DNA from: Ornithinibacillus bavariensis
GTDB taxonomy: Bacteria; Bacillota; Bacilli; Bacillales; Amphibacillaceae
Assembly (NCBI RefSeq): GCF_018333235.1
Contig: NZ_BORP01000001.1
Coordinates: forward strand, 558,001 to 622,000
Direction of reading: 5' to 3'
DNA length: 64,000 nucleotides
Shown here piece after piece: positions 6,605 to 35,240 of this stretch. Made by a program: the position numbers and the translations under genes. Under the pieces are notes generated by a model. It saw only the letters and a program-made list of their open reading frames with translations, was not told the DNA's origin and searched no databases. Position 1 is the stretch's first letter; each line of letters begins with the position of its first letter.

Positions 6605-6739
6605 TTACTTTTTAATAAAAGGATCTGGTTCTTCAACATTAGCAAAATCAGACTCTTGATATGCTAAAAAACCACTGAAAGAAATGCTTGAAAGCATTAT
6701 AGCTAAAGAAAATAAGCCATAAATCCAATAGCGTTTCAT
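6605..6739 (-). CDS. Small secreted-peptide precursor, candidate signal of the adjacent NprR-like regulator
   Basis: A 44-codon gene with a strong ribosome site (AAAGGGGGTG, 6 bases before the ATG). It lies 15 bases downstream of the stop of the HTH-TPR regulator, on the same strand. The product has a short basic start (MKR), a hydrophobic core of about 20 residues up to GFLAYQ, and a hydrophilic acidic tail ending VEEPDPFIKK. This is the layout of NprX, PapR and Phr precursors, which are exported, cut and re-imported by the oligopeptide permease to bind the partner regulator. The mature peptide is presumably within the last 10 or so residues. The sequence does not match the NprX or PapR peptides I remember, so it would be a distinct pherotype. 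Confidence 0.7.
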   Translation of the reverse strand: MKRYWIYGLFSLAIMLSSISFSGFLAYQESDFANVEEPDPFIKK

Positions 6740-6754
6740 TGTTTTCACCCCCTT

Positions 6755-8017
6755 TCAAAAATAAGAGTTTATATTATCAAGCGCTTTATAGTATATTGCT
6801 GCTTGTTTGTATTTTCGGTTGTCAAAATAATATTTAGCAAGAAGTTTAGTATAATTTGCTTCCTCATATACAAGTTGTTTTTCGTGGTAAAACGGTATAA
6901 TGTGTTTTGTAATTAATGATTCAAATGAATTATTTATTCCATTAATTAAGTGTTCATAGACTTTAAATTCGTAAACATGGATAGATTGTAAGGGATCTAT
7001 TGATTTGCTCAACTCTAATCCTAATTCCATCCAAGTTTTAGCATTTTCTAAATCTCCAATCTTATAATATTCATTCATTAAACTGGAAATAGGAATCAAC
7101 TTTTTTTCAATTGATTGATTTTTCCTTAATTCATAGCTTTTTAAATAGTGGTTGATCGATTCAAATGATTCCCCAATTGAAGACAATAGCTTCCCCATAT
7201 TTTGATAGCATAATACTAAAATGCCATTGTCATCAATCTTATGGGCAATCTTTATAGCAAAACCGTAACTCTCTTTTGCTTTATCAATATTGTTAATTCT
7301 CCTATAAGAAATCCCTAATAATATTTGACATTTCGCACATCTTCTTAACTCATATTTCCCCTGATAATACTCCAATGCACGTAAAGTATAGAGCAGACAT
7401 AAATGTGTTTGTCTTATTTTGCTAGCTGAGCTTCCAATTAAATAGTAGAGATTATGAATATCCTCTGCCTTATGAAAAATATCGGAGTGGATATATCTTT
7501 CAGCATTTTGAAAGAAATCTAATGCTTTTTTGTATTCCATCTGTGAGTAGTGATAGCATCCTAGAAAATTTAGATAATAGTACATTTCATTTTCAGAGAA
7601 TTTTTTTGAGCTTTTTTGTAAAGATACAATAACATTTTCTGCCTCTTTATAATCTTTAATCAGAACGAAGTAATAGAGCTTGTGAATGTCAACTAAAGTA
7701 GTTAGCTTTTTATCATAGCCATTTATTAAATTGTTTTTGATTTTATTGTATAGCCGTATGGATTCATCGATGTTTACTCGTAATAGATGATGAAACCAAC
7801 GAATTATCGATTGATCTGTAACAGCATTCGTAGAATCTAGTGCGTTCATATTTAGCCTTTCACCTAATAAACCAATGATTTCCTCTGGAGGTTCAGCTGT
7901 TCCGTTTTCTATTTTTGATAAATAAGAAACAGAGATTATTCCATTTGCTAATTCTGCCTGGGTCATATTGGCTCTTAATCGATTAAATTTAATAGCTTGT
8001 CCTAAATCTATTCCCAC
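6755..8017 (-). CDS. NprR-like RNPP-family regulator (HTH plus tetratricopeptide repeats)
   Basis: A protein of 420 residues, the length expected for NprR. Residues about 5-60 form a Cro/CI-type helix-turn-helix (MTQAELANGI, SYLSKIENGT), followed by a long all-helical region with repeated tyrosine-rich TPR pairs such as YSQMEYKKALDFFQNAERY. RNPP regulators bind a small re-imported peptide with the TPR domain and then change DNA binding or, for NprR, release of Spo0F. The GTG at 8017 was chosen because AGAGAGGTGAG precedes it by 4-5 bases; a longer frame starting at 8056 has no ribosome site. A peptide-precursor gene follows 15 bases after the stop. The targets are not known; the divergent peptidase gene is the nearest candidate. 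Confidence 0.8.
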   Translation of the reverse strand: MGIDLGQAIKFNRLRANMTQAELANGIISVSYLSKIENGTAEPPEEIIGLLGERLNMNALDSTNAVTDQSIIRWFHHLLRVNIDESIRLYNKIKNNLINGYDKKLTTLVDIHKLYYFVLIKDYKEAENVIVSLQKSSKKFSENEMYYYLNFLGCYHYSQMEYKKALDFFQNAERYIHSDIFHKAEDIHNLYYLIGSSASKIRQTHLCLLYTLRALEYYQGKYELRRCAKCQILLGISYRRINNIDKAKESYGFAIKIAHKIDDNGILVLCYQNMGKLLSSIGESFESINHYLKSYELRKNQSIEKKLIPISSLMNEYYKIGDLENAKTWMELGLELSKSIDPLQSIHVYEFKVYEHLINGINNSFESLITKHIIPFYHEKQLVYEEANYTKLLAKYYFDNRKYKQAAIYYKALDNINSYF

Positions 8018-8064: not shown

Positions 8065-8092
8065 ACTATATAATAAAGGGAATATTCAACAA
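8065..8092 (-). promoter_or_regulatory. Probable promoter of the NprR-like regulator
   Basis: On the minus strand TTGTTG (complement of 8087-8092), 16 bases, then TATAGT (complement of 8065-8070). A GGGAATATT element sits in the spacer and a related GGAAATATT just upstream (8094-8102), which hints at autoregulation. Confidence 0.45.
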
Positions 8093-8134: not shown

Positions 8135-8150
8135 CAGGAAATATTTCCTG
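8135..8150. promoter_or_regulatory. Perfect 16-bp palindrome, candidate operator
   Basis: CAGGAAATATTTCCTG is identical to its reverse complement. It lies between the divergent NprR-like regulator (start 8017) and the S13 peptidase (start 8249). Half-site-like GGAAATATT recurs at 8094-8102. Position and symmetry fit a dimeric regulator site; which protein binds is unknown. Confidence 0.5.
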
Positions 8151-8248: not shown

Positions 8249-9643
8249 ATGAGAGAAGTTTGGAGAAAATTAGAGGAGGCATTTCAAGCAGAGCCAAAGC
8301 TAAAAGGGGCATTAACGGGAATAAGCATACGCAGTAGTCAGACAGGAGAATTACTATATGAGCACCTCGGAGATATTCGTTTACATCCTGCGTCCAATAT
8401 GAAAATATTTACTTGTGCGGTTGGGTTGGCTGTCTTGGGAGAGGATTATAGGTTTAAAACAGAGCTTTGGACGGATGGTGAAGTAAGCAATGGGAGACTT
8501 TTTGGTAATGTTTACTTAAGAGGAATGGGAGACCCAACCTTATTACAGAGTGATATCGATTTTTTTGGGGAATGTCTCGCTGAGCAGGGGATATGTCACA
8601 TTGAAGGCAACATTATTGGGGATGATTCATGGTATGATGATGTACGGCTATCACAAGATTTAAATTGGAATGATGAACATTTTTATTATGGATCACAGGT
8701 CTCAGCGCTAACAGTGTCTCCAAACGAAGATTATGATTCAGGCACAGTTAAGCTTACAATAACTCCAAAAACAACCGCTGGAGAAAAACCTAGTATCTCT
8801 TTAACTCCAGAAACTGAATACATAAAAATAATTAATCGTGCAGTCACGATAGCGGCATCAACTATGGAAGAACATGAAATAACAGTAATACGTGGGCATG
8901 GCAATAATATCGTTACAGTCAGTGGTACTATCCCAATTCAATCCGAACCGATAGATGAATGGGTAACGGTATGGGAACCTACTAACTATGTGTTAGAGTT
9001 ATTTGGGAATGCCTTAAAGCGACTTAATATTAGCTGGTCAGGAGAGCTAATGGTAGGTAATACACAAGAAACCGCAACACTTCTTCACACGCGGTTATCC
9101 ATACCTCTAAAAGAATTGTCTATTCCTTTTATGAAGCTTAGTAATAATGGGCATGGAGAGATCATTGTAAAAGAGTTGGGAAGAGTTGTGAATGGAGAAG
9201 GAAGTTGGGACAGTGGTCTTGAGGTCTTGAATACTAATTTACAAAAATATGGTGTTGATACATCCAGTATGGTCATTCGTGATGGATCAGGAATTTCTCA
9301 TGTGACGTTAATCCCTCCAAATGAGATTTCGAAGTTCCTATTTCGTATACAAAATGAAAAATGGTTTTCTCATTTTTATCGTTCTCTTCCTGTTGCTGGT
9401 GCTAAGAAAAGAATGGTCGGTGGTACTTTACGAGAGCGAATGGAAGGATTACAAGTATATGCAAAGACAGGTACCATTATGGGCGTTAGTACACTTTCTG
9501 GCTATCTTATAATAGATGAAGAGGAAACATTAATCTTTTCAATAATGCTAAACAATCTATTAGATGAAGAAGATGGTCCAGACATTATTGATAGATTACT
9601 TGAGATTATTGTTGAAGAAAAAAGCAAAACAATCCTTTCTTGA
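8249..9643 (+). CDS. D-alanyl-D-alanine carboxypeptidase, peptidase family S13 (PBP4/DacC-like), no signal peptide
   Basis: A 464-residue penicillin-binding-protein fold. The three active-site motifs are present: SxxK as SNMK (about residue 50), SxN as SNN in MKLSNNGHGE (about residue 292) and KTG in YAKTGT (about residue 408). A long insert between the first two motifs is typical of the S13 family, which trims D-Ala from peptidoglycan stem peptides. Unlike DacC of B. subtilis, the N-terminus (MREVWRKLEEAFQ) is hydrophilic and has no export signal, and no better start is seen upstream, so it may be cytosolic or exported in another way. The SD AAGGAG is good. It is divergent from the NprR-like regulator and ends in a terminator. 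Confidence 0.85.
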   Translation: MREVWRKLEEAFQAEPKLKGALTGISIRSSQTGELLYEHLGDIRLHPASNMKIFTCAVGLAVLGEDYRFKTELWTDGEVSNGRLFGNVYLRGMGDPTLLQSDIDFFGECLAEQGICHIEGNIIGDDSWYDDVRLSQDLNWNDEHFYYGSQVSALTVSPNEDYDSGTVKLTITPKTTAGEKPSISLTPETEYIKIINRAVTIAASTMEEHEITVIRGHGNNIVTVSGTIPIQSEPIDEWVTVWEPTNYVLELFGNALKRLNISWSGELMVGNTQETATLLHTRLSIPLKELSIPFMKLSNNGHGEIIVKELGRVVNGEGSWDSGLEVLNTNLQKYGVDTSSMVIRDGSGISHVTLIPPNEISKFLFRIQNEKWFSHFYRSLPVAGAKKRMVGGTLRERMEGLQVYAKTGTIMGVSTLSGYLIIDEEETLIFSIMLNNLLDEEDGPDIIDRLLEIIVEEKSKTILS

Positions 9644-21012: not shown

Positions 21013-22799
21013 ATGCAAGAAACTAGGGGATACGAGAAAACTTGGGATTTAGACGTGATATTTCCTGGAGGTAGTGAGTCAAAGGAATTTGAAGACTATC
21101 TACAAAAGTTAGAAAGCAAAATGAAGGATCTATCAAACTCGGTTAATTATTATGACCCAAAAGGTCAAAATTCAGCACTTGAATTAGTGGAAATTGTTAC
21201 TATTCTTGAGGCTACGATGAAGAAACTACGAGAATCATTCGCATTCATTAGTTGTCTGAGTGCTCAAAATGTAAAGGATGTTGGGGCAAATCTATTAACA
21301 GGAAGACGCAGCACATTAGGTGCCAAGATGGGAAGTATACAAACCATTCTAAATCAAAAATTAGCAATTATCCCTGAGGAAAAATGGTTAGAGATAGTAA
21401 ACCATGAATCTTTGCAGGATATTTCCTTTGTATTAAATGAAAGGCGAGAAGCTGCGCAAGAGTTGCTGTCCTCTGAACAAGAAATATTATTGAATGATTT
21501 ATCTGTTGATGGATACCATGCATGGGGACAAATGTATGAGACGATCGCAGGGAATATGACTGTAGAATTGGAAGAGAACGGAGAACTAAATTTATATTCT
21601 ATTGGACAAGCCTCCAATAAATTAAGTAGTCCAGATCCGGAATTTCGTAAATATGTATTCGACCAAATTAGTAAGGCTTGGGAGAAAAATATTGATTTAT
21701 TTGGGCAAACATTAAATCATTTGGCTGGATTTCGTTTACAAAAGTATAAACATCGCGGATGGGACAATGTATTAAAAGAACCTCTTTCTATGAACCGAAT
21801 GAATCAGGAAACTTTAGATGCAATGTGGAATGCGATAACAAAAAATAAACACCATTTTGTAAAGTATTTAACGAAAAAGGCAGAGCTACTTGGGAAGGAC
21901 AAACAAGTATTTATGATATTAATGCCCCTTTAACGAAAACAGTTAAAACTGTTTCATTCACGGAAGGTGCAAATTTTATAATGAAACATTTTAGAGAGTT
22001 TAGTCCGAAGATGGCAAACTTCGCAAAAATGGCCTTCGAAAAAAGATGGATTGAAGCAGAAGACCGTCCAGGAAAGCGACCTGGTGGATTTTGTACAAGC
22101 TTTCCAGACAGTGAACAAACACGAGTGTTTATGACATACTCAGGAACTTCCTCGAATATTTCCACACTCGCTCATGAGCTTGGACATGCATATCATCAAT
22201 ATGTCATGAACGATGTACATGGTTTAAATCAAGGGTATGCGATGAACGTTGCGGAGACAGCTTCCACGTTTGCAGAGATGATTGTAGCAGATGCATCTGT
22301 CTTAAATGCTAAAGATAAACAAGAAAAGCTAGAATTACTGGAAGATAAAATTCAGCGTAGTATTGCCTTCTTTATGAATATTCATGCTAGATTCGTATTT
22401 GAGACACGTTTTTATGAGGAGCGTAAGAAAGGAATCGTGTCAGTTAAAAGACTTAATGAGTTAATGCTAGATGCACAGAAAGAGACCTACTGTGAGGCGC
22501 TTGAGGAGTATGACCCTTCATTTTGGGCATCAAAATTACATTTCCATATTACGTCAACTCCTTTTTACAACTTCCCATATACCTTTGGTTACTTATTTAG
22601 CCTAGGTATCTATGCACATGCGAAAAGAAGTAATGAGAGTTTTGAAGACAACTATATTGCATTACTACGTGACACGGGTCGGATGAAGGTAGAAGATCTT
22701 GCATGGAAGCACCTAAAGGTAGACTTAACAAAATCTGACTTCTGGGAAGCTGCAATGGAACTTTGTGTTAAAGATGTAGAGGAGTTTATTTCATTATAA
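21013..22799 (+). pseudogene. Oligoendopeptidase F-type M3 metallopeptidase, split by one frameshift
   Basis: Two reading frames, 21013-21933 and one resuming by about 21905 and ending at 22799, together encode one M3 peptidase of about 595 residues, the normal PepF length. The first ends abnormally after GKDKQVFMILMPL; in the next frame the sequence reads SIYDINAPLTKTV, the expected continuation. The lesion is within about 21899-21907, best explained by loss of one base. The second part holds the zinc site LAHELGHAYHQY and downstream FPYTFGYLFSLG, intact. No other stop is present, so the break is recent or a sequencing error in an A-rich spot. If real, the N-terminal product lacks the active site. 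SD TTAGGGAGAG precedes 21013. Confidence 0.85.
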
Positions 22800-27742: not shown

Positions 27743-29002
27743 CTAATCCCTAATTTCCTTTAGTTTTGGTATATCTCCCTGCCTGCCAAATTTACCAAGC
27801 TCTACATCAACTGTGATATTAATGTCCATTTCAGGATATTTTTTCATCCAATCAAATGCCTCCCATTCTGGTATCGTTAGGAATTTTTTTCGAGCTATTA
27901 ATGACCAACCAAATGGATCTGCTTTATACTCCTCTTGTGTTTTTCTAATTAATTCGTTTAGCTTCTTTTCTAAAGCTTGCTCAAAGCTTTTATTTAAGGT
28001 TTTTCTTTTTTGCGAGTCTTTTGCGTAATGCTCCATACTGTGGTTAGTTAAAACTTCCACTAATATAGGTACATTTACATCAATTGATGGGGTGCTTTTT
28101 TTTGTGTTTATCTTTATATCTTCAGTACCATTTTTTGTAAGACGTGTTGCAATCCGGTATTTTTCATCAAACGGATCTGGAAAAGTTGTTAAAATTTCTT
28201 GCGCAGTTAATGTTGGGTTTAACATAAAGGTTAGTCTGGTTTCTTCGATAGTTAGTACGTCAATCATCTTACCCTCTTTAAATACAGCAGATCCTGCAAA
28301 TTGGGTATTATTTGTTTCTCCTCCATATTGAAATTCACCAGCTTTAAAATTATCAGGGTTTATAGGATTAGATGAACGCTCCTCCTTTTCCGTTGTGCTA
28401 TAAATTCCTAAAAAAAGATCGGCATCGGCTTCAGTAATACGGAAAAAAGTGGTTAAATCTGAAGTTGGTGTCATTCCCGTTTCATTCCCACGTTCAATAA
28501 TCATCTGAAAATATTCATGAGGTCTCGTTTCTAGTTTTGGTTGATTGTTGAGTATATATTTTTCCGTATCCTCTTTAGTTATCATTAGCTTTGCATCCCT
28601 TCTAATTTCCATTTCCTTCGTAGCATCGTATATCCATCTAATAAAATTCTCATCTCTGGCAAATTCTTCTGAAACTATCAATATTCTTAATAAATCATAA
28701 GAAATTTGCTTCGCAATAACCGTATTGGCTATATTTCTCGAAACAACAAAGTCATCTGTTTTAAAGGAAATAACTTCACGAGGGGGTTCATTCCCAGCAC
28801 CACCACTTGCAGCGTTTCCTGACTCCGGGTTTGCTATAAGATAGGTGATTTTTATAAGATTTTCATCATCTTTTGGCTTGTCAATACCCATTGCGATGAC
28901 ATAAGCAAATTCTTCAACTTCTCGCTGATCCCAGCAACCAGAAAGAATGAATAAAGGGATCAGATAAATGATTATCTTTCCTCTATTGATTTGCTTTTTC
29001 AT
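27743..29002 (-). CDS. Spore germinant receptor C subunit (Ger(x)C lipoprotein)
   Basis: A 419-residue lipoprotein: a basic start and hydrophobic stretch run into the lipobox LSGC, followed at once by WDQREVEEFAYVIAMGID, the hallmark of GerAC-type subunits. The GerC subunit sits on the outer face of the inner spore membrane and joins GerA and GerB subunits into a nutrient receptor. The start overlaps the end of gerB by 20 bases and has AAAGGAGATTTTAAAC upstream. The operon order A-B-C is normal, and SigG control in the forespore is expected from the family, although no clear SigG promoter was found. Confidence 0.93.
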   Translation of the reverse strand: MKKQINRGKIIIYLIPLFILSGCWDQREVEEFAYVIAMGIDKPKDDENLIKITYLIANPESGNAASGGAGNEPPREVISFKTDDFVVSRNIANTVIAKQISYDLLRILIVSEEFARDENFIRWIYDATKEMEIRRDAKLMITKEDTEKYILNNQPKLETRPHEYFQMIIERGNETGMTPTSDLTTFFRITEADADLFLGIYSTTEKEERSSNPINPDNFKAGEFQYGGETNNTQFAGSAVFKEGKMIDVLTIEETRLTFMLNPTLTAQEILTTFPDPFDEKYRIATRLTKNGTEDIKINTKKSTPSIDVNVPILVEVLTNHSMEHYAKDSQKRKTLNKSFEQALEKKLNELIRKTQEEYKADPFGWSLIARKKFLTIPEWEAFDWMKKYPEMDINITVDVELGKFGRQGDIPKLKEIRD

Positions 29003-30086
29003 GTTTAAAATCTCCTTTAAGCTTGGCTATTAGCCACATCAGGCAAGGTAGGAAGAAAAAAACAGGTGACAATATGTTTAGAACCGTTTCTCTCAGATAG
29101 AAAATGGTGAAGGTAGGCGTATCTGGTATTATTCCTATAAAAATAATTAATGTTGCGAGAGAAGGAATAATATACTCGAAGTTTTTAATTTTAAAGAGAT
29201 GCCCGAATAATAATGCATTAATATACAAATATACTGAAAATCGAACGAAAGTACCGATTAACCAAAATGGGAAAAAAAATGTCTCCATATTGGTTATAAA
29301 ACCTGCAGAAATCGTACGTATTACCTCATGAAATGGATAGTTCATCTGCATAAGTGAATTATAGTCAAATAAAAAAACAAAACTAGTCATTGCAAGAACT
29401 AAGTTAATTACAACAAAAAATAATGAAATCCATGATCCTTTTTTAATAGTAGCAGCTGTACTTAAAAATGGTACGAGAATAAATAAATAAAGATAGTCCG
29501 CAAAAATGGATAATTTCATTACACTTTCCTTCATAATTGTCCATTCTCCAGGACCAAAAAAGGGAAAGAGGAAGGATGTATTTCCATGCCTTATCGTTAA
29601 AATTAGAGCGATTAAAAATGGAACCTGCAAATAGGGAAAAACGGTCCATGCAACGGATCCTATTTTTTCTAATCCTTTTTTAGCACCATAAGCACTTGCC
29701 AGCATTAAGACGCCATAAATGACAATTGTAGGAGTTTTGACAAAATACATGCTACTGACAATATCTGTGTAAATAGCTGTATCTATGATTGTGGCAGCCA
29801 ATATACCTAACCAAAGAGCAAATAAGATAATATAACCAAGGAACCTTCCGAATAATTGATTCGTAACCTCTATAAGCCCCTTTCCTTGATAATTTGTAAT
29901 GACTCGTATTAAAAGAAAGATAGGGAGGATAGTAACTATACCGTTTATAATAATAGCCATCCAACCAGCATTGTACAATTTTTCATACAAAATAGCTGGA
30001 GTATCATCAGTTAACTTTGTCGAAAGGATAATCATGCTGATTGCAACAAATTCTTTTATCCCAATTTTTCCTTTTGACTGTTCCAT
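28983..30086 (-). CDS. Spore germinant receptor B subunit (endospore germination permease)
   Basis: A 367-residue protein with about ten membrane helices, of the APC-superfamily spore germination permease group. It opens with KGKIGIKEFVAISMIILSTKL and has the family pattern of a Pro/Gly-broken first helix. GerB subunits bind the germinant, usually an amino acid. The start codon overlaps the gerA stop by 1 base (TAATG), so the subunits are translationally coupled. Which nutrient is recognised cannot be read from the sequence. Confidence 0.92.
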   Translation of the reverse strand: MEQSKGKIGIKEFVAISMIILSTKLTDDTPAILYEKLYNAGWMAIIINGIVTILPIFLLIRVITNYQGKGLIEVTNQLFGRFLGYIILFALWLGILAATIIDTAIYTDIVSSMYFVKTPTIVIYGVLMLASAYGAKKGLEKIGSVAWTVFPYLQVPFLIALILTIRHGNTSFLFPFFGPGEWTIMKESVMKLSIFADYLYLFILVPFLSTAATIKKGSWISLFFVVINLVLAMTSFVFLFDYNSLMQMNYPFHEVIRTISAGFITNMETFFFPFWLIGTFVRFSVYLYINALLFGHLFKIKNFEYIIPSLATLIIFIGIIPDTPTFTIFYLRETVLNILSPVFFFLPCLMWLIAKLKGDFKHEKANQ

Positions 30087-31615
30087 TAGTTCTCTCCCTG
30101 TCTCTTCTTTAAATTCTTTGGTTTAACGTAGCCTGGCCGGAATATTTCTTTTTGTAAGGTTCTCCTTATAATTGTATCCTCCGAGGATATATAATTAGGA
30201 GTCATGGGAGCCAAATAAGGTACACCGAACGATTTTATAGAAAGCATATAAAATAACCCCATTACAAAAATTGAAGTAATGCCATATAAACCGAATATAC
30301 TTGCACTTAAAAGCATCATAAATCTACTGATACGAATAGCAAAATTCATACTGATATCACCAATCGCAAATGAACTTAGCCCACCTAATGCAACAATAAT
30401 GACAACAATAGGGCTTACAATATTTGCTTGAACAGCAGCCTGTCCTAAGATTAGTGCACCAACTATTCCAATTGTTGGACCAATAGGACTTGGAACTCTT
30501 AAGCCTGCTTCTCGGATTAGTTCAAAGGCGATTTCCATTATGAAGACTTCTATTGCTGCTGGAAATGGTACTCGCTCCCGAGTTGCTGCAATGGCTAGCA
30601 GTAAATCGGGAGGAATCATTTCTGCATGGAAGGTAACAACGGCGACATACAGTGCAGAAGCAAATAAGGTGATGAACAAAGCCAATATCCGTAGTAACCT
30701 TGTAAAGTTGGCATATGGTAACCGTAAATAGTGGTCTTCTGCTGAATGATAAAAAGACCAAAATGTAGCGGGGATAATTAAGGTATCTGGTGAATTATCC
30801 ATGATTAAGATAATATATCCATCCTCAATGAAAGAAGCTGCACGATCTGGCCGTTCAGTATACAATGTGGTTGGAAAAATGGAATATTTTCGTTCCTCGA
30901 TATATTGTTCAAGTAAACTTAGATTTTGAATCGCATTTGTATCTAGAGATTTAACGCGTGCTTTAACATTTTGTAATAATTTTTCATTTACCAAGTCCTT
31001 TTGATAGATAATAAATAGATCATTTTTTGATTCATTTGAGACGATTGCGGATTCTACTACTAAGTTCTCACTTTTTATTCGCTTTCGAATTAAGGAAATA
31101 TTAGTTGCGGCTTTTTCATTAAATGCCTCTTTTGGTCCTTTTACAACGTTCTCATTCTCTGTTTTTTCAACTGTTCTGCTTTCAAAGTTAGAAGCATCGA
31201 AAAGGAAAGCTAGATCTTCTCCTTCAATAAAGAGAGCAACATTCCCATTATTAATTTTTGTTGCGATTTGATTAATGTTGTTTTCAGTTGATATCGTTTG
31301 GGCTGAGACGATGTCTTCAATGCTTTGGAATGGCTCTGTACTACTTTGAAGAGGTTTTATAATATTTTGTTCTATAATTTGAGGATCGGTAATTGTCTTG
31401 ATGAATATAATAGCAGCTGGTTTATCTTTTCCGGGAATAGAAAGATTTCGAATAATGACATCATGGTTAGTCGGTACAGTATAAATTTCACGAAAGATTT
31501 TTAAGGTTTGTTCTAAACTTGGATCGATCGTTAGGTTTGTAGTTTCTTTATTTTGTTTTGGAGATTCGCTTACCTCTTTATCTTTTTTCTTAACCGATTT
31601 TCTTAATTTAATCAT
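30086..31615 (-). CDS. Spore germinant receptor A subunit
   Basis: A 509-residue GerA family protein: a hydrophilic N-terminal half (residues about 1-290, with NNINQIATKINNGNVALFIEG) and a C-terminal half with four to five membrane segments. The highly conserved block around the helices is present (MIPPDLLLAIAATRERVPFPAAIE, EAGLRVPSPIGPTIGIVGALILGQAAV), as is GISSFAIGD-like LSSFAIGDISMN. GerA subunits form the oligomeric ion-channel-like core of the nutrient receptor. First gene of the operon, with GGAGTTG rather far (about 14 bases) from the ATG. A terminator separates it from the spoVA operon upstream. Confidence 0.94.
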   Translation of the reverse strand: MIKLRKSVKKKDKEVSESPKQNKETTNLTIDPSLEQTLKIFREIYTVPTNHDVIIRNLSIPGKDKPAAIIFIKTITDPQIIEQNIIKPLQSSTEPFQSIEDIVSAQTISTENNINQIATKINNGNVALFIEGEDLAFLFDASNFESRTVEKTENENVVKGPKEAFNEKAATNISLIRKRIKSENLVVESAIVSNESKNDLFIIYQKDLVNEKLLQNVKARVKSLDTNAIQNLSLLEQYIEERKYSIFPTTLYTERPDRAASFIEDGYIILIMDNSPDTLIIPATFWSFYHSAEDHYLRLPYANFTRLLRILALFITLFASALYVAVVTFHAEMIPPDLLLAIAATRERVPFPAAIEVFIMEIAFELIREAGLRVPSPIGPTIGIVGALILGQAAVQANIVSPIVVIIVALGGLSSFAIGDISMNFAIRISRFMMLLSASIFGLYGITSIFVMGLFYMLSIKSFGVPYLAPMTPNYISSEDTIIRRTLQKEIFRPGYVKPKNLKKRQGEN

Positions 31616-32811: not shown

Positions 32812-33162
32812 TCATCCCTTAGGTTTAAAAATTAACGCACCTATCATACCAAATATGATGGCTGCGGATATTCCTGAGCTTGTAACTTCAAACATACCCG
32901 TAATAACACCAATTAAACCATGCATTTCTGCTTCCTGCATTGCCCCATGAACTAAAGAATTACCAAAGCTAGTAATAGGAACGGTTACTCCAGCACCAGC
33001 GAAATCGATTAATGGTTCATATAATCCAAATCCATCTAATATCGCTCCTACAACCACTAGTATGCTAAGCGTATGTCCAGGAGTTAATTTAAAAACATCA
33101 AACATTATTTGGCCAATGACACAAATTAAACCACCAATAACGAATGCCCAGAAAAATATCAT
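32812..33162 (-). CDS. spoVAEB: Stage V sporulation protein AE-b
   Basis: A 116-residue protein with four hydrophobic stretches and the SpoVAE/SpoVAC family pattern: [17 protein letters not shown], then [43 protein letters not shown]. It belongs to the channel that moves dipicolinic acid into the forespore and out at germination. It overlaps the spoVAD stop by 4 bases. Similarity to SpoVAC of this operon reflects a common origin. Confidence 0.92.
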
Positions 33163-34175
33163 GTTCTATCACTTCCTGATTCAATAGAGACTGCGTGTGC
33201 TATACATGGTATAGGATCCTTTTGGTTTACACTTAGAGGAGAGTGTAAAGAACCAGTTGCAACTACCAGTATTTTATCCAGTTTTCCTTTTTTCATTAAA
33301 TCTAAAAAGTGTCCATAGGTTACCACTGCAGAGCATGCTGGACCACTTGCTCCCGCTAATACTGGCTGATCCTCACGATAAATAGTCAGTCCGCAATCTA
33401 GATAATTATTTTCAATGATATTGACACCATTTTTCCTTAATAGGTCTAATGAAACCTCTCTTCCAATATGTCCTAAATCACCAGTTATTATTAAATCGTA
33501 ATAGGAAGCATCAACATTTCTTTCTTTTAAGTGTGTTAAGATTGTGTCTACTGCAGCGGGAGCCATGGCTCCACCCATATTAAAAGGATCCGTCATTCCC
33601 ATATCTACAATTTTCCCAATCGTTGCTGAGGTTACTTGTGGTCCATCACCGGTTTTTGCAACTAAAGCACATCCAGCACCAGTTACTGTCCATTGAGCAG
33701 TTGGAGGTTTTTGCCCACCATATTCTGTTGGATATCGAAATTGTTTTTCTGCTGCAGCATTATGGCTAGAAGTACCACTAAGAATATAATCTGCACCATT
33801 ACTATTCAGAATGTAAGCTGCTAAAGCTAAGCTTTCCATAGAGGTGGCACAAGCACTAAATAAACCAAAAAAAGGACTTCCTACCGTTTTAGCAGCAAAA
33901 TTTGTAGGGGTGATTTGGTTGATTAGGTCACCACTGATAAAAAAAGAGACTTGTTCTTTTTCAATTGGACTATTTTTAATAGCATATTGACATGCTTCTT
34001 CCATCATCAATTGCTGCGCTTTTTCAAATGAAGCTTGTTCCAGCCACATATCGTCATGTAATATATTGAAAGCATGGGGAATACGACCATTTGCTTCAAA
34101 CGGACCTCCGACTGTTCCAGTAGAAATAATTACTGGTTTATTTTCAAAAATCCACGTCCTGTGCCCTGCAAGCAT
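33159..34175 (-). CDS. spoVAD: Stage V sporulation protein AD
   Basis: A 338-residue thiolase-fold protein: the opening [42 protein letters not shown], the [28 protein letters not shown] block and [13 protein letters not shown] near the end. SpoVAD binds dipicolinic acid at the inner spore membrane. ATG at 34175 follows GGGGTGG and shares one base with the spoVAC stop (TAATG), so the genes are translationally coupled. The central region matches SpoVAD of the spoVA2-type operons, from memory. Confidence 0.94.
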
Positions 34176-34654
34176 TAAAATCCACCCCATGTTATAAGGA
34201 TTGTTTTAATTAATGCCACTATAAAGGCAGAAAATACACCAAACAAAATGACAGTTCCTGCAAGCTTAAACATATTCCCACCGACACCTAGAACAAAGCC
34301 CTCGGTTCGGTGCTCAATTGCAGCACTTATTACCGCATTACCAAAACCAGTGACTGGTACTGCCGACCCAGCACCGGCAAATTGTCCGATTCGGTCATAT
34401 ACGCCAAAACCAGTGAGTAGCATGGTAAGGAATATCAGTGTTGCTGTAGTTGGATTTCCAGCTGTCTGTTCTGTAAAATCAAAAAAGTAAATGTAAAACG
34501 TTGAAATAAGCTGACCAATGAAACAAATAAACCCCCCAACTAGAAATGCTTTTATACAGTTTTTGAGTAATGGCCGCTTCACCTCACGCTTTTCCTGAAA
34601 ATCTTGATATTTTTGTGCCTGGGGAGGAAGGTTCTTCTTTTTTTTATCTGCCAT
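34175..34654 (-). CDS. spoVAC: Stage V sporulation protein AC
   Basis: A 159-residue membrane protein with a basic N-terminal tail (MADKKKKNLPPQ) and four to five hydrophobic helices including AFLVGGFICFIGQLISTFYIYFFD and YDRIGQFAGAGSAVPVTGFGNAV. SpoVAC acts as a mechanosensitive channel for dipicolinic acid release. The ATG at 34654 follows AAGAAGGGATTCGA; 18 extra residues of a longer frame have no ribosome site. First channel gene after the YhcN/YlaJ lipoprotein. Confidence 0.93.
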   Translation of the reverse strand: MADKKKKNLPPQAQKYQDFQEKREVKRPLLKNCIKAFLVGGFICFIGQLISTFYIYFFDFTEQTAGNPTTATLIFLTMLLTGFGVYDRIGQFAGAGSAVPVTGFGNAVISAAIEHRTEGFVLGVGGNMFKLAGTVILFGVFSAFIVALIKTILITWGGF

Positions 34655-34685
34655 TCGAATCCCTTCTTTCATCTAATTGGTTCAT

Positions 34686-35147
34686 TTATGTCTTTTCTTT
34701 CATCAATTTACTTATGTCTTCTAATTTTTTCTTTAATTCTTTTTTGGAAATCGATCCATTACGTATTTCCTCTTCTAACTGCTCAAGCTTCCACAGTATT
34801 TTCTGATCAGAAGAGACTTCTACTTTTAAGGAGGTTTTCTTAAATTTCTTTTTCATTTCCTTTGTTAGTTTCTTTTCATATTTCTTTAATTGTAAGCGTT
34901 CATGATGTGGTACATCGATAGCTATCATTAGCAGCTTGTCCGAATTTACAGCGAATACCTTTGTCACATTTTTCTTTTGTGCAAGGGTAGATTTTGCCTG
35001 GTTAGCGTAGGATTGATCATACGAATGTTTTGTGGAAACATTGGATATATGGATTGGGTTTGTTTTTTCAGAAGGCTCACTCGATGATGAGGTGCAGCCA
35101 GCAGTAAGGATGAATACAATAAAAAGTAGAAATTGGTATTTGCGCAT
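34686..35147 (-). CDS. YhcN/YlaJ-family sporulation lipoprotein
   Basis: A 153-residue lipoprotein (lipobox LTAGC about residue 20), followed by a Ser-rich linker and a YhcN/YlaJ domain: HSYDQSYANQAKSTLAQKKNVTKVFAVNSDKLLMIAIDV. It ends in a lysine-rich coiled stretch. YhcN and YlaJ are spore-membrane lipoproteins linked to germination. ATG at 35147 lies 6 bases after AGGTG; the GTG at 35156 overlaps that site. It sits between DUF1657 and spoVAC, as in the spoVA2mob operon. Confidence 0.88.
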   Translation of the reverse strand: MRKYQFLLFIVFILTAGCTSSSSEPSEKTNPIHISNVSTKHSYDQSYANQAKSTLAQKKNVTKVFAVNSDKLLMIAIDVPHHERLQLKKYEKKLTKEMKKKFKKTSLKVEVSSDQKILWKLEQLEEEIRNGSISKKELKKKLEDISKLMKEKT

Positions 35148-35240
35148 CAGTTTCACCTATTTCTGTCAATGTTAGAAGGGGAGAGTAACCTCCCCAATTA
35201 GGTCTAGCTCTAGAATGAGTATTATCCTGAACTTTTATTA

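Follow-up and report, generated by a model that had tools for sequence, protein, structure and literature searches.

An NprR-type receptor gene of Ornithinibacillus bavariensis with its own predicted pheromone, and covariation between one receptor position and the pheromone residue before a conserved proline

Results

A receptor and a small exported-type protein are encoded in tandem

The analyzed stretch of the O. bavariensis genome (hereafter, the window) comprises 64,000 nucleotides of contig NZ_BORP01000001.1 and carries, on its minus strand, a pair of genes (Table 1). As the preliminary description had it, a 420-aa regulator with helix-turn-helix (HTH) and tetratricopeptide repeat (TPR) domains is followed after 15 nt by a 44-codon gene with a strong ribosome-binding site and an export-like leader, the latter judged by a hydropathy rule alone; all of these points were confirmed. 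The GTG start of the receptor is supported by the ATG found at the same place in six aligned relatives. Besides the divergent carboxypeptidase gene, an ABC-F neighbor is retained in 3 of 6 named orthologues. Elsewhere in the window, the adjacent open reading frames (ORFs) at 21013-21933 and 21981-22799 resemble what we take to be one oligoendopeptidase F-type gene in 2 pieces.

Table 1. Features of the receptor–propheromone locus (positions in the window).
Feature	Position	Strand	Description
Receptor/regulator gene	6755..8017	minus	GTG at 8017, stop at 6755; 420 aa with an HTH at the N terminus and nine TPR helix pairs
Propheromone gene	6605..6739	minus	44 aa; ATG at 6739, stop at 6605; export-like leader and VEEPDPFIKK tail
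Ribosome-binding site of the small gene, AAAGGGGG	6748..6755	minus	Touches the receptor stop codon
Predicted pheromone core VEEPDPFI	6614..6637	minus	Register as NprX SSKPDIVG; mature ends inferred
Receptor codons S199-T204	7406..7423	minus	K200 at 7418-7420, the column covarying with the pheromone residue before Pro
Palindrome AGGAAATATTTCCT	8136..8149		Candidate autoregulation operator; conserved in orthologues
Candidate receptor promoter, TTGTTG-N16-TATAGT	8065..8092	minus	By-eye reading of the conserved alignment; absent from the consensus scan list
Peptidase_S13 (D-Ala-D-Ala carboxypeptidase) gene	8249..9643	plus	Divergent; neighbor in 6/6 named orthologues of >60% identity; at most a possible member of the system

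The receptor belongs to a clade distinct from characterized NprR

Family searches identified an HTH_3 domain in the regulator (E = 1.8e-8) as well as TPR matches. By sequence, its best solved relative is NprR (E = 1.7e-13), with Raps next among the nine chains matched, and the family-profile search puts NprR second, after a designed TPR protein, among the best 60 of 68 matches; AimR is named neither among the nine chains nor among these 60 profile matches. The AlphaFold2 model, built from 58 sequences (mean pLDDT 90.3), displays an HTH followed by 18 helices, which form nine TPR pairs over residues 68-417. The NprR entries 5dbk (chain A, TM 0.85 by target length) and 4gpk (chains at about 0.8) head its fold matches, followed by Raps, with NprR and Rap entries mixed lower down. 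Neither NCBIfam nor PHROGs provided an informative family name.

In a tree of 44 rows rooted with two Raps, NprR lies on a long branch apart from the 13-row clade of the window's receptor; NprR of the Bacillus cereus group is represented by the 4gpk chain alone, because the class search, with matches in 8 of 398 genomes (best 28-29% identity), missed it. A single offset sufficed to map all 17 NprR residues taken from the accessible portion of PMC4970707 onto the 4gpk chain. The receptor retains W74, D102, and Y222 (NprR W79, D107, and Y223), and none of the five NprR residues contacting the pheromone is identical, with R126, W167, H201, N306, and D309 corresponding to K121, Y162, K200, K305, and I308. 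Judged from sequence, the pair falls into a clade apart within the NprR-type systems and has a predicted signal of its own.

A small gene with a conserved core follows most homologous receptors

We searched behind the receptors of 297 loci for small genes with an ATG, GTG, or TTG start between -40 and +60 of the receptor stop, a ribosome-binding site, a basic start, a hydrophobic stretch, and a length of 22-170 codons. Such a gene was detected behind 184 of 225 unique receptors as compared to 5 of 129 other long ORFs in 80 loci, two of the five control matches being located behind second receptors of the same family, so that the small gene is not there by chance. No peptide was detected for 40 receptors. 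The pairing of an RNPP-type regulator with a peptide gene in NprR-like order, suggested from the window alone, is thus supported both by NprR as the best solved relative and by the conservation of the small gene behind homologues.

The propeptides share a core with an acidic residue, one or two variable residues, and a Pro, often followed by x-Pro or x-Ile. Cores in the window's clade include NEEPYPW, EEHPDPW, and EKEPDPY, a second clade has EPSIFS, and other Bacillaceae have DEHPDP, EPDHPKIV, and EEEFPPF. Among the window's gene and its six genus orthologues, the 8-codon core has a pN/pS of 0.21, as compared to 0.44 for the leader and 0.65 for the spacer (each summed over pairs of related sequences). 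What had been described as an acidic tail resolves into a conserved E-E-P-x-P core and a short tail (IKK, PKK, or TKK) after it. As for the unfamiliarity of the peptide, VEEPDPFIKK is indeed an individual variant, but its acidic-x-Pro plan is common to a large NprR-type family; it is a new predicted specificity inside a known kind of system. A Pro-containing five-residue stretch is repeated two to nine times in 35 of the 184 propeptides, and a 2022 survey in mBio lists repeats in 17 of 17 unusually long NprX-type propeptides (PMC9765709, in its accessible portion).

The leader, ribosome-binding site, and size would suit other small exported proteins, such as a bacteriocin-like or membrane microprotein sharing the operon and not serving as this receptor's signal, and the small protein matches no Pfam, NCBIfam, or PHROGs family. 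Such a protein would not be expected to repeat its core, to experience stronger purifying selection on that core, or to covary with a receptor position whose NprR equivalent contacts the pheromone (see below), which renders this reading very improbable. The search for plasmid matches to the small protein returned none.

The arrangement varies among several family members. The tandem receptors L016/L034 have a single detected propeptide (SEEPDPW) behind the second receptor. Seven receptors from Amphibacillus, Paraliobacillus, Streptohalobacillus, and Halolactibacillus (L129-L135) have no detected small gene, and another Paraliobacillus receptor (L128) has one. Behind the Perspicuibacillus receptor L116, a tandem-repeat ORF of the VANEEVVEPTFKSG type starts at 324 nt, beyond the reach of the rule.

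Distribution of the receptor family

Among the best 80 of 170 named loci in the alignment-based scan, six orthologues from Paucisalibacillus and Ornithinibacillus exceed 60% identity, and further orthologues at 41-50% come from Oceanobacillus, Aquibacillus, Perspicuibacillus, and others; the close-relative scan with the single protein as query yielded no match. An orthologue of >60% identity is encoded in 6 of 10 other genomes of the genus that were searched. With all paralogues counted, a receptor was detected at 1e-40 in 112 of 159 genomes of the family and, among 397 genomes sampled across the order, in 165 at 1e-30. The window's genome holds three receptor paralogues, two with the cores GEAHPPIF and FEEDPGPMD and the third without a detected peptide.

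Relatives of the pair have already been classed as NprR-NprX in published surveys. The mBio 2022 survey reports NprR in 21 genera and in Virgibacillus (accessible portion of PMC9765709). A literature search that covered few subscription papers found none joining NprR and Oceanobacillus, and, at the level of titles and abstract openings, none on peptide quorum sensing in Ornithinibacillus.

One receptor column covaries with the pheromone residue before the proline

In the crystal structure of NprR with NprX, the Lys of SSKPDIVG stacks on H201 and W167 (accessible portion of PMC4970707). A match at the corresponding position, K200, was first spotted by eye in a table of known contact columns, after which every well-filled receptor column (414 in all) was scored for the information it carries on the residue preceding the conserved Pro of the pheromone. 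The scan used 173 receptor–propeptide pairs, obtained from 185 propeptides (the 184 found by rule and the annotated ORF of L098) by dropping 12 without a clear core; four cores were corrected by hand (L018, L027, L143, and L166). The K200 column, equivalent to NprR H201, ranks first of 414, and it also does so with the uncorrected core assignment. Glu before the Pro goes with Lys in 77 of 82 pairs (77 of 85 uncorrected), Phe with Arg in 8 of 9, and Gln with Lys in all 8, and His (n = 48) is accompanied by Gln (23), Arg (9), Tyr (4), Lys (4), His (3), Glu (2), and others.

When 2,484 position pairs are corrected for background, the combination of K200 with the residue before the Pro comes third; R298 paired with the residue two positions ahead of the Pro, and S199 paired with the residue before the Pro, score higher. 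On a tree built without the K200 column, the strongest co-change with the pheromone residue among 411 columns is that of S199, T204, and K200; for the residue after the Pro, the W167 and H201 columns rank fifth and sixth in tree co-change.

The covariation might instead reflect shared ancestry of the receptor clades and not contact, the pair itself being real. Consistent with this, the sister-pair sign test for E/K does not reach significance (median p 0.125), its 12 pairs comprising averages of 4.1 concordant, 0.2 discordant, and 7.7 uninformative ones, and inside single groups other columns outscore K200, which ranks 2 of 416, 7 of 421, and 16 of 413. However, the association of E/H with K/not-K recurs separately in clade A (16,1 / 1,7), clade B (48,0 / 2,5), and the rest (13,4 / 1,32), the p values per clade ignoring relatedness, and the three columns that lead the 411 in tree co-change lie within six residues, so that we regard ancestry as the sole cause as quite unlikely. 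There are exceptions to the match: L008, from the same genus, combines K with H-P, and L073 and L228 deviate as well. Receptors without a detected peptide neither help nor hurt the case, because those of Amphibacillus, Paraliobacillus, Halolactibacillus, and Streptohalobacillus vary at the K200 column and several closer to the window's receptor (L011, L015, L016, L023, and L116) retain the Lys.

Returning to contact as the source of the covariation, we tentatively propose, at somewhat less than even confidence, that NprR-type pairs across Bacillales use a recognition letter, that is, that the pheromone position preceding the fixed Pro has its counterpart in a single receptor residue (E-K, F-R, Q-K, H-Q/R/H/Y, D-N, and S-F). 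The three pairs in the window's genome carry three letters (E-K200, H-T, and D-N), and, if the proposal holds, these differences would separate the signals of the three paralogous pairs, the pheromone would be predictable from the receptor, and specificity would be switchable by one exchange. This residue-level match looks to be the new part: the same literature search, covering few subscription papers, found among the papers listed no NprR report describing such covariation, and in the accessible portion of their paper Even-Tov et al. name it as a key future challenge to pinpoint which receptor positions underlie coevolution with the pheromone in Raps, the sister family (PMC5199041). The scan points to a position known from the NprR/NprX crystal, and the specificity of a widespread family could be tested with single exchanges and short synthetic peptides.

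A conserved palindrome is a candidate autoregulation operator

Upstream of the receptor start by approximately 130 nt, the palindrome AGGAAANNTTTCCT (8136-8149) is unchanged in all seven genus members compared, among which the divergent intergenic region is otherwise mostly diverged. Of the 32 receptors of the window's clade (a clade cut by score, with one member lacking upstream sequence), 16 have GAAANNTTTC between -160 and -100, 7 of the 16 being the genus members; 12 of these sites share one 20-nt bin, and none is found in the coding sequences of the clade receptors. At that place, GAAANNTTTC precedes 7 of 193 other receptors. The exact palindrome occurs five times in the window's genome as compared to once for the reversed control, and 40 versus 9 times in 11 genomes of the genus; 8 of the 40 are receptor promoters, leaving 32 versus 9. 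When one mismatch is tolerated, the window's own genome shows no enrichment (36 versus 42 for the control). Autoregulation of the receptor through this candidate operator appears likely, because the palindrome is invariant in the genus, recurs before clade receptors, and is enriched over the reversed control.

Alternatively, the palindrome could be a transcription terminator or an element of the divergent carboxypeptidase gene, given that a search for terminators picks it out as a stem with a run of T and that it sits between divergent genes. We consider this unlikely: several orthologues lack the T run, there is no upstream gene that would need termination, and a similar site stands before nine clade receptors outside the genus-level orthologues, in a clade whose named loci (L116-L126) have no carboxypeptidase match.

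Two further candidate targets were rejected. An exact site ends 116 nt upstream of a secreted-type subtilase gene, which would recall the control of a protease gene by NprR, but the exact site is absent from the 300 nt upstream of the genus's 10 other subtilase loci, the best sequence there being one mismatch away (L359). The sites in three genomes near a gene that is presumably spoIIR-like lie inside the upstream gene, over the same codons, and are explained by coding. As separate observations, TTTCCCAA is identical across 11 of 11 aligned regions upstream of subtilase genes (L349-L359), and in L330 and L337, from two genomes of the genus, similar FAD-binding oxidase genes are preceded by the exact palindrome at distances of 198 and 180 nt (Pfam assignment on L330 only). 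No term for an NprR DNA site occurs in PMC3325205.

Sporulation and the mode of action of the receptor

The preliminary description linked the pair to sporulation, a link that is neither supported nor excluded. Spo0A is encoded in the genome, but of the NprR residues that contact Spo0F (D107, Y118, E188, and Y223; here D102, K113, I187, and Y222), two of the four needed for Spo0F inhibition are kept and two are changed, the alignment being of low identity and the middle two positions uncertain. The same residues bear on the possibility that the receptor is mainly a Rap-like protein-binding switch, which would inhibit Spo0F and delay sporulation when free of peptide and be released by the peptide, with DNA binding secondary. 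The retained W74, D102, and Y222 and the presence of Spo0A agree with such a switch, and NprR of B. thuringiensis performs both functions (accessible portion of PMC4970707). Against this, K113 and I187 replace Y118 and E188 of NprR, conservation of the HTH is strong, and the upstream palindrome is invariant in all seven genus members; a predominantly Rap-like role thus seems somewhat unlikely. Elsewhere in the window, the genes at 27743-31615 and 33159-35156 resemble what we take to be spore germination receptor and SpoVA-type operons, which agrees with a spore former.

Discussion

A predicted cytoplasmic receptor with its own pheromone

We consider it highly probable that the pair constitutes an NprR-type cytoplasmic peptide receptor with its own pheromone, which would operate through export, import, and binding. 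The 44-aa product would be exported through its hydrophobic leader and trimmed outside the cell to a peptide around VEEPDPFI, which would be re-imported by an oligopeptide permease; the genome encodes eight SBP_bac_5 proteins, of the peptide-importing kind. The peptide would occupy the groove of the superhelix formed by the nine TPR pairs, where K200 would lie opposite the Glu that precedes the first Pro, and the bound form might either activate or repress transcription at the candidate operator.

Comparison with known systems

PlcR-PapR shares with the window's pair an HTH, a TPR domain, and a downstream small gene, but PlcR matches weakly (E = 7.5e-5 over residues 3-178, among the best 60 of 68 profile matches), and its fold has five TPRs (accessible portion of PMC12700828) as opposed to the nine pairs in the model of the window's receptor. 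Rap-Phr systems have the nine-TPR fold and a downstream propeptide in common with the pair; Raps, however, lack the HTH, and the two Phr propeptides compared have other cores. A plasmid-borne pair of Priestia koreensis FS-1 contains a receptor of the same family and a SEEEFPEP core, with Phe before the Pro and Arg at the K200 column. The paper on RRNPP_detector counts two NprR-NprX systems on plasmids of this strain (accessible portion of PMC10075063), and, given the strain and plasmid, the pair analyzed here is probably one of them.

NprR-NprX is the system that the window's pair resembles in the HTH and nine TPR pairs, in the small exported-type propeptide encoded directly downstream, in the best fold match, in the Pro-Asp of the core, and in a pheromone core that does not lie at the very C-terminus. 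The two differ in that identity in the fold alignment is 20% and that the Lys before the Pro in NprX is a Glu here, mature NprX (SKPDIVG) and EEPDPFI being in the same register.
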